Made by a program: the position numbers and the translations under genes
Assembly (NCBI GenBank): GCA_017414535.1
Contig: JAFQMA010000026.1
Location: 1-49,589, forward strand
Source: Clostridia bacterium
Lineage (GTDB): Bacteria; Bacillota; Clostridia; Oscillospirales; SIG627
Reading direction: 5' to 3'
Length of the DNA: 49,589 nt
In this document: piece by piece, positions 48,292 through 49,589 of the stretch
How positions within the stretch are numbered: position 1 is the stretch's first letter
Layout of the letters: each line of letters begins with the position of its first letter
Notes under the pieces: generated by a model
The model's input: the letters and a program-made list of their open reading frames with translations, nothing else
Database searches by the model: none
What the model was told of the DNA's origin: nothing

Positions 48292-49254
48292 ATGAAAATT
48301 ACAGTGATCGGTTGTGGCAGATGGGGTTCTTTTATCGGCTGGTATCTGGATCATATCGGCCAGAACGTAAGCTTTTACGGCCCCGCCGATTCCCCCCATA
48401 TGCAGGCATATCTTACCACCAGAACCAACGGACTCGTGACCTTAAACGACTCCATCGGTCTGGAAACGGAGCTTGAAAAGGCCCTGGAGGCAGAGCTGAT
48501 CGTGATCTCCGTTCCCTCTCAGTCCCTGCGCGGACTGCTACATGAAATTCAGGATTCCGGAATCAATATTTCAAGAAAGACCTTTATCCTTTGCATGAAG
48601 GGCATCGAGATCGAAACGGGCAAACGCCTTTCCGAGGTATTCGAGGAGATTCTGGGCGATAAGATCAATCTTGCCGTATGGCTGGGTCCCGGGCACGTAC
48701 AAGAGTTTCTCAAAGGTGTTCCGAACTGCATGGTCATTGACAGCAAGAGTGTAGCGCTGAAGGAGCATTTGATCGAATCCTTTAAGGGCGATCTGATCCG
48801 TTTTTATTACGGAACCGACCTGATCGGCAACGAGATCGGTGCCGCCGCCAAAAACGTCATTGGCATTGCCGCAGGCGTACTGGACGGTATTGGCAGAAGC
48901 TCCCTGAAGGGAGCCCTCATGTCCCGCGGGTGCCGCGAGGTAGCAAGACTTATTGAGGCTTGCGGCGGAAAGGGTATTTCCGCCTACGGTCTGTGTCATC
49001 TCGGTGATTACGAGGCTACGGTCTTTTCACAGTTCAGTCACAATCGTGCCTTTGGAGAGATGTACGCAAAGGGCGAGACCTTCCCCAGCCTTGCGGAGGG
49101 CTACTACACCGCAAAGGCCATCCATAATCTTGCTAAGGCCAAGGGCGTTGAGCTTCCCATTTGCGAAGCGGTCTACGCTATGCTCTACGAGAAGGCGGAC
49201 ATTGCAGATTGCCTCAACGGATTGTTTGAAAGATCCCTGAAGCAGGAATTTTAA
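48292..49254 (+). CDS. gpsA: NAD(P)-dependent glycerol-3-phosphate dehydrogenase
   Basis: 320 residues. Rossmann GxGxxG is VIGCGRWGSF, and the substrate part shows WLGPGHVQEF, IGNEIGAAAKNVIGIAAGVLDG (catalytic Lys) and LMSRGCREVARL. It makes sn-glycerol-3-phosphate for phospholipid synthesis. Start ATG 48292 with GGTGATTT upstream. The 48-base gap from ftsH holds a small AAAGCC/GGCTTT hairpin, no terminator, so the gene may be co-transcribed. Confidence 0.94.
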   Translation: MKITVIGCGRWGSFIGWYLDHIGQNVSFYGPADSPHMQAYLTTRTNGLVTLNDSIGLETELEKALEAELIVISVPSQSLRGLLHEIQDSGINISRKTFILCMKGIEIETGKRLSEVFEEILGDKINLAVWLGPGHVQEFLKGVPNCMVIDSKSVALKEHLIESFKGDLIRFYYGTDLIGNEIGAAAKNVIGIAAGVLDGIGRSSLKGALMSRGCREVARLIEACGGKGISAYGLCHLGDYEATVFSQFSHNRAFGEMYAKGETFPSLAEGYYTAKAIHNLAKAKGVELPICEAVYAMLYEKADIADCLNGLFERSLKQEF

Positions 49255-49257
49255 TAT

Positions 49258-49293
49258 AAAAACGGAGAGAACGCTTTGTTCTCTCCGTTTTTT
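49258..49293 (+). terminator. Terminator of gpsA
   Basis: AAAAACGGAGAGAAC and GTTCTCTCCGTTTTT form a perfect 15-bp stem with loop GCTTT, four bases past the stop codon, ending in six T. Confidence 0.95.
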
Positions 49294-49314
49294 CATAAGA
49301 AAAGCCGACCCAAG

Positions 49315-49346
49315 GTTGGTTGCGATAAGGGATGATCGCAACCAAC
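49315..49346. repeat. Outer 12-bp hairpin of the array
   Basis: GTTGGTTGCGAT (49315-49326) and ATCGCAACCAAC (49335-49346) form a perfect 12-bp inverted repeat with an eight-base loop AAGGGATG. It has no heptamer of its own and appears to bound the array on the left. Confidence 0.8.
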
Positions 49347-49354
49347 AATGATAT

Positions 49355-49467
49355 TTTTCCTTACGGAAAAGCGAAATTTTTCCTTACGGAAAAGCGAAAT
49401 GTTTCCTTGCGGAAACGTGAAATATTGCTGTCGCAATGTGAAATATGCCCGAAGGGCATGTTGATGT
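49355..49467 (+). repeat. Left half of hairpin array: five hairpins with GTGAAAT-type spacers
   Basis: Five short hairpins follow one another with no slack. Arms, loop and spacer: TTTTCC, TTAC, GGAAAA, then GCGAAAT (49355-49377); an exact 23-base copy of that (49378-49400); GTTTCC, TTGC, GGAAAC, then GTGAAAT (49401-49423); ATTGC, TGTC, GCAAT, then GTGAAAT (49424-49444); ATGCCC, GAA, GGGCAT, then a degraded GTTGATGT (49445-49467). The stems differ among units but remain perfectly complementary, while the spacer stays nearly constant. Confidence 0.92.
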
Positions 49468-49468
49468 A

Positions 49469-49503
49469 AAAAATACTCCGTTGTTTTTCAACGGAGTATT
49501 TTT
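49469..49503. terminator. Central 15-bp hairpin of the array, terminator-like both ways
   Basis: AAAAATACTCCGTTG and CAACGGAGTATTTTT form a perfect 15-bp stem with a T5 loop, with A-run before and T-run after. It has the form of a bidirectional terminator and separates the two halves of the array. Confidence 0.9.
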
Positions 49504-49511
49504 ATTCCTTC

Positions 49512-49589
49512 ATATTTTCGAAGAAAATATTTCACGGGCAAAGCCCATTTCACTCGTCGCAGACGAATTTCACAGATTTGCACGGCAAA
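49512..49589 (-). repeat. Right half of hairpin array with ATTTCAC spacers, open at window end
   Basis: Hairpins ATATTTTC/GAAAATAT (49512-49530), GGGC/GCCC (49536-49546), TCGTC/GACGA (49554-49566) and a cut-off TTTGC/GCAAA (49577-49589) are joined by ATTTCAC at 49529-49535, 49547-49553 and 49567-49573. ATTTCAC is the reverse complement of GTGAAAT, so this half has the same grammar on the minus strand and converges on the central hairpin. The array continues past the window end. Confidence 0.9.

Follow-up and report, generated by a model that had tools for sequence, protein, structure and literature searches.

The right end of the window analyzed here (the whole 49,589-nt stretch of contig JAFQMA010000026.1, assembly GCA_017414535.1, from a Clostridia bacterium) carries an array of small perfect hairpins separated by a nearly constant heptamer. 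On balance, we take the window to contain most of a non-coding, multi-copy element of ~300 bp that belongs to the Gut-1 family (Rfam RF01706), is non-autonomous and hairpin-armed, resembles the intervening sequences (IVSs) of rRNA genes, and colonizes hairpin loops. In this element, an outer hairpin leads into a linker-hairpin array and a central terminator hairpin, beyond which lie a reversed array and another outer hairpin. The best interpretation makes it a non-autonomous relative of elements bearing a single gene for an S23/IVS four-helix-bundle protein, and its Gut-1 arrays heptamer arrays that have hairpins between the heptamers. The Gut-1 family was known before; the linkage of such arrays to four-helix-bundle genes is new. 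The features are as follows.

49315 to 49346: outer (terminal) hairpin, GTTGGTTGCGAT..AGGGATG..ATCGCAACCAAC, 12 bp perfect (inverted repeat I4)
49355 to 49459: left arm, five hairpins (49355-49370, 49378-49393, 49401-49416, 49424-49437, 49445-49459) with GCGAAAT/GTGAAAT linkers
49371 to 49444, + strand: four heptamer linkers, GCGAAAT, GCGAAAT, GTGAAAT and GTGAAAT, starting at 49371, 49394, 49417 and 49438
49469 to 49503: central 15-bp terminator-like hairpin separating the two arms (inverted repeat I2)
49512 to 49589: right arm, reversed, with hairpins at 49512-49530, 49536-49546, 49554-49566 and 49574-49589 (cut)
Starts at 49529, 49547 and 49567: right-arm linkers ATTTCAC, from the grammar search
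49300 to 49310: left arm AAAAGCCGACC of a second terminator; the matching right arm, GGTCGGCTTTT, is on contig C19, past the window end (11-bp complementarity unique to the C4-C19 pair, and synteny)
49258 to 49292: terminator of gpsA, AAAAACGGAGAGAAC / GTTCTCTCCGTTTTT (inverted repeat I1)
48292 to 49254, + strand: gpsA (glycerol-3-phosphate dehydrogenase-like, named by the first-pass annotation), an open reading frame (ORF) adjoining the element and outside it

The first-pass annotation described nine hairpins at 49355-49589 with stems of 4-8 bp and loops of 3-4 nt, the ninth being truncated at the contig end, and all of this was confirmed; the window ends where its contig, C4, ends. Using a grammar of a 7-mer linker, a perfect hairpin and the same 7-mer again within one mismatch, which is blind to the linker sequence, five units were counted in the array, whereas 1000 dinucleotide shuffles, a control of the kind suggested by the annotation, averaged 0.023 and never gave more than 1. 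The 240-nt stretch folds with a z of -8.3. A linker said to be constant throughout proved to be so, as G[C/T]GAAAT, in the left half (to 49444) but reads ATTTCAC after the central hairpin, and the array therefore has two convergent arms. Changing stems with perfect pairing were likewise found overall, except that the first three hairpins are near-repeats (TTTCCTTRCGGAAA), one of them being a 23-bp duplication that is not in the copies on contigs C14, C15 and C5. The element begins before 49355, at the outer hairpin, and runs on beyond the window. The annotation was right to see a fixed heptamer that looks like a recognition site, and also right to set CRISPR aside, since nothing is conserved beyond 7 nt and the units are spaced 18 to 23 nt apart, with no spacers of constant length.

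The same annotation knew of no named family, but the array already has a name because its left arm matches Gut-1 at 49369-49449 on the + strand with 60.6 bits in a covariance model search (gathering cut-off 50). The right arm matches on the - strand at 49502-49575 with 49.5 bits, slightly under this cut-off; in other copies, right arms reach 64.9. The right half is thus a second, reversed Gut-1 arm, and the Rfam entry covers only one arm of a two-arm element. Gut-1 matches occur in 20 of the 22 genomes of the family, with up to 46 per genome (in G000), and, under stricter filters, in one of ~198 other genomes sampled across the phylum. Further arrays in those family genomes use GTGATAT, ATGATAT and other heptamers. 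A weak 6S RNA match (32 bits, cut-off 46.4) adjoins an array at locus L012 (1627-1815, minus strand).

Parts of the element lie on seven contigs of the same genome at ~99% identity, and copies are present at no fewer than four places. Aligned copies show an outer hairpin at both ends (GTTGGTTGCGAT.. and GTAGGTTGG..), the hairpin at the opposite end being of like kind in the C44, C19 and C43 copies. Three left and three right flanks pair uniquely over 10-12 bp (C4-C19, C14-C43 and C5-C44), compared with at most 7 bp in other combinations. From this complementarity, the paired flanks are read as the arms of an intrinsic terminator that holds the element in its loop, in the three copies whose flanks can be paired. 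The C4-C19 pairing is confirmed by synteny because the C19 gene corresponds to the one that follows gpsA in two congeners; in both, the gpsA-downstream junction lacks the element and has only ordinary terminator-like hairpins. Furthermore, terminator arms also surround a sister-type copy, complete and contiguous, that was found in another genus (L108), so that insertion in a hairpin loop, a defining trait of IVSs, is seen in the three copies and in L108. Orthologues of gpsA were identified in 13 other genomes of the family. The orthologous gpsA of another genus (L276, genome G018) is followed by a different array, of the GTGATAT type, which apparently inserted independently at a comparable position.

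The arrays are also linked to a protein gene. PF05635 (TIGR02436; "four helix bundle protein" in NCBIfam), the S23/IVS family, occurs in 17 of the 22 family genomes, often in many copies, and several of the matches lie directly behind double arrays. In 80 loci from named genomes and 11 viral contigs, a linker-agnostic unit detector counted 216 units (5.07/kb) within 500 bp upstream of the four-helix-bundle genes, against 0.41/kb downstream and 0.19/kb at more than 1 kb, the upstream density being 27-fold that of the distant sequence. Of the 83 loci with enough sequence, 55 had at least two units, and two arms are visible in 41 of 65 classified arrays. The linker (ATTTCAC, ATTTCAT, ATATCAC, ATTTAGC, ACATCAC, ACATCAT, AATTCAT, ACTTCAC, GCTTCAT and others) is nearly constant inside each array and differs between loci, where it tracks the protein tree: 14 linker states need 18 changes, whereas 200 shuffles averaged 47 and never needed fewer than 43. 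A tRNA or tmRNA gene lies within 360 bp ahead of 29 of 56 array-bearing gene loci, always on the identical strand. In 24 of 65 loci, a perfect hairpin of at least 8 bp directly adjoins the outermost linker, compared with 10 of 1300 random points. The neighboring terminator tends to close with G..C in ATTTCAY and ATTTAGC types and with C..G in ACATCAY types, so its edge may be part of the element. Arrays of this kind directly upstream of four-helix-bundle genes are new, and we found no paper in the open-licence literature that ties these proteins to hairpin arrays. The window copy has no ORF of the PF05635 family, while relatives sharing its array type carry one. In G000, the first bases of contigs C3 and C21 fall inside four-helix-bundle genes, as expected if the parts upstream are repeated in the genome. 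Two plasmid-borne four-helix-bundle genes (L282, Monoglobus; L286, Planktothrix) sit amid restriction or DISARM defence genes.

The model of the ATTTCAC-class protein consists of four helices (predicted local distance difference test score 94.7). Its fold is closest to the S23-family structures 2rld and 2gsc, followed by Avd and the ribonucleoprotein of a diversity-generating retroelement (DGR), with template modeling scores of 0.75-0.85 for the Avd-like fold. By homology, the protein is probably a pentameric ring.

How the stems vary bears on the form in which the hairpins act. In 34 non-redundant GTGAAAT-class arrays, counting pairs inward from the linker edges shows that the four outermost pairs of each hairpin are of the Watson-Crick type in 27-34 of the 34 arrays, against ~11 when the 3' arms are re-dealt, and that all four pair types occur at 11 of 12 positions. 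The first-pass annotation had opposed covariation to plain homology, and each applies at its own scale: copies within the same genome share near-identical stems, while sequence-divergent arrays keep their pairing with all four types. The loops follow a rule of their own. Across 402 hairpins, oriented so that the linker reads like ATTTCAC, triloops are GNA in 116 cases and TNC in 2, tetraloops are GNNA in 92 and TNNC in 1, and the closing pair of triloops is C-G in 201 of 214. The rule, C-GNA-G or C-GNNA-G, therefore holds on one strand only, a strong strand asymmetry. Sheared G-A loops of such a kind occur in very stable DNA mini-hairpins. In addition, the BPP-1 DGR target relies on a GRNA hairpin loop (PMC3240598).

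These patterns are also where the best-surviving alternative has to be weighed, namely that Gut-1 is an expressed non-coding RNA working through its hairpins as part of the transcript, for example as a stable tail or a protein-binding RNA, and that the element is not mobile as such. Rfam types Gut-1 as a small RNA and Weinberg 2010 rated it as likely RNA, the covariation is real, and the gene-bearing arrays follow same-strand tRNA and tmRNA genes, all of which fit this explanation. Unlike in RNA helices, however, G-T is unfavored, making up 2 of 408 cells and, in loci found mostly by a covariance model that tolerates wobble, 6 of 47 non-pairs, no excess above chance; the GNNA loops have no clear purine preference at the third place, unlike the GNRA loops of RNA; and near-identical copies at unrelated sites with mirror-image arms are ill-suited to a single RNA. 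Selection on RNA alone was rejected on the first two grounds, and the scarcity of G-T together with the lack of a clear purine rule suggests DNA rather than RNA hairpins as the acting form. We consider the non-coding RNA explanation unlikely.

Somewhat less likely still is a host-useful or autoregulatory site, in which the arrays are a 5' leader bound by the four-helix-bundle protein to control its own expression and solitary arrays are decayed or captured. The gene-proximal arm does sit between terminator and start codon, and a linker that tracks the protein would suit such a site, but this explanation accounts neither for dozens of arrays per genome, such as the 46 in G000, nor for terminator-loop insertion and inverted heptamers on both sides of the gene.

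The least probable of the three, and one that we regard as very improbable, is that these are elements like the repetitive extragenic palindromes (REPs) and bacterial interspersed mosaic elements (BIMEs), with a Y1 (HUH) transposase mobilizing them in trans, or else retro-elements mobilized by a group II-type reverse transcriptase. Inverted hairpin pairs resemble BIMEs, and one outer hairpin starts with GTAG, as the feet of REPs do. Group IIC introns also seek terminators (PMC3240598). Nevertheless, no Y1 transposase was found in the array-rich but incomplete genomes G000, G012, G007 and G019, none of 14 Y1 loci adjoins an array, and the reverse transcriptase domain RVT_1 is present in only one of the 22 family genomes, which are likewise incomplete; mobilization by a Y1 transposase of the REP-associated (RAYT) type and by reverse transcriptase was rejected on these counts.

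Four-helix-bundle genes without hairpin arrays connect the element to a wider class. Beside them, period-7 tandem repeats reach 13.65/kb upstream and 10.68/kb downstream, against 0.35 far off, whereas periods 6 and 8-12 are near zero, and lag-7 identity in the flanks is 0.37-0.41 compared with about 0.25-0.28. Such repeats were seen in Treponema, Bernardetia, and plasmids of Nostoc, Planktothrix and Euhalothece. The left and right flanks are inverted copies of each other, with a median longest match of 11 versus 6 when shuffled. The link to rRNA was noticed because two-copy four-helix-bundle genes in complete genomes proved to lie in rRNA operons, which made them useless for defining element ends. 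In the phylum sample, a four-helix-bundle gene lies within 23S rRNA at five loci in four genomes; L300, L305, L318, L320 and L322 are classical 23S rRNA inserts, with PF05635 genes and period-7 flanks. In genome G105 (L307, about 1229-2003), the RNase P RNA gene is apparently split by a four-helix-bundle gene flanked by inverted heptamers visible by eye.

A mechanism can be proposed for the hairpin-armed, IVS-like element. The four-helix-bundle protein would bind the 7-nt unit of the element and perhaps also, on the strand with the unit in its ATTTCAC form, the C-GNA-G or C-GNNA-G mini-hairpins. Once bound and extruded as hairpins or cruciforms, the arrays would then carry the element to another hairpin, where host enzymes would copy it into the loop or edge; the targets would be intrinsic terminators, tRNA or tmRNA tails, 23S rRNA helices and RNase P RNA. 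Extending this, we think it possible, at slightly below even confidence, that there is a widespread, unrecognized class of transposable elements whose sole protein is an S23/Avd-like four-helix bundle that recognizes a 7-nt unit and aids the colonization of hairpin loops, and that Gut-1 arrays, 23S rRNA IVSs, RNase P inserts and many bacterial heptamer repeats are its forms.

Several points weigh against a mobile element of this kind. No insertion or excision between strains was seen, the empty sites belonging to other species, and the complete window element is pieced together by pairing contig ends of a fragmented assembly, which makes its full form a putative one. About one third of the four-helix-bundle loci have no array by the detector used, and a cognate gene of the GTGAAAT class was not found in this incomplete genome. 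The protein family is not known to contain a catalytic motif, nuclease and recombinase motifs included, so a further partner would have to do the chemistry. Finally, physical linkage alone could yield the correspondence between linker and protein, which is no proof of binding; the telling point here is that the heptamer persists while the stems turn over. The interpretation in the first-pass annotation was only partly supported, and among the roles it guessed, a MITE-like element (miniature inverted-repeat transposable element) or a protein-binding array comes closest.

The reading of the window as an IVS-like element brings three orphans, the Gut-1 "RNA", the S23/IVS protein and the bacterial heptameric repeats, into one testable frame. 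The function of the S23/IVS protein has been unexplained since IVSs were described more than 25 years ago. If the protein does bind the heptamer, the two would form a minimal system for mobility or binding of an unusual kind, and its rule (free stems, a fixed heptamer and C-GNA-G loops on one strand) is simple enough for in vitro testing.

Compared with known systems, the window array is identical in kind to the hairpin-GUGAAAU array of Gut-1 RNA, which both arms match. It differs in that Gut-1 is classed as a non-coding RNA and known from gut metagenomes alone, whereas here the array is one arm of a two-arm repeated element, its relatives are linked to a protein gene, and sister arrays carry other heptamers. 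With 23S rRNA IVSs, it shares hairpin-loop insertion, inverted flanks and, in gene-bearing relatives, the PF05635 protein. The Coxiella IVS has tandem heptamers, GACAGAT, ahead of its S23 ORF, and the paper on it recalls an old suggestion that IVSs were mobile (PMC4990558); in related loci here, repeats of period 7 likewise surround the ORF, while the heptamer of the window joins one hairpin to the next. IVSs, however, lie in rRNA and are excised by RNase III, whereas the window element is non-coding and lies in a terminator behind gpsA, the rRNA cases belonging to other genomes. REPs, BIMEs and REPINs with their RAYT are similarly dispersed, inverted pairs of small intergenic hairpins, but here the heptamer rather than the stem is constant and no Y1 partner was found. 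DGR targeting requires a DNA hairpin with free stem sequence (PMC3240598), and the free stem, the G..A loop and the Avd-like fold of the partner protein are all reminiscent of this system, which differs in having a reverse transcriptase partner. The heptameric repeats of Xanthomonas and Nostoc share the 7-nt unit, the intergenic location and, sometimes, the inverted pairs; their description names no partner gene and states that they are unconnected to mobile elements (PMC4692102), whereas the period-7 repeats seen here flank four-helix-bundle genes, including one on a Nostoc plasmid.
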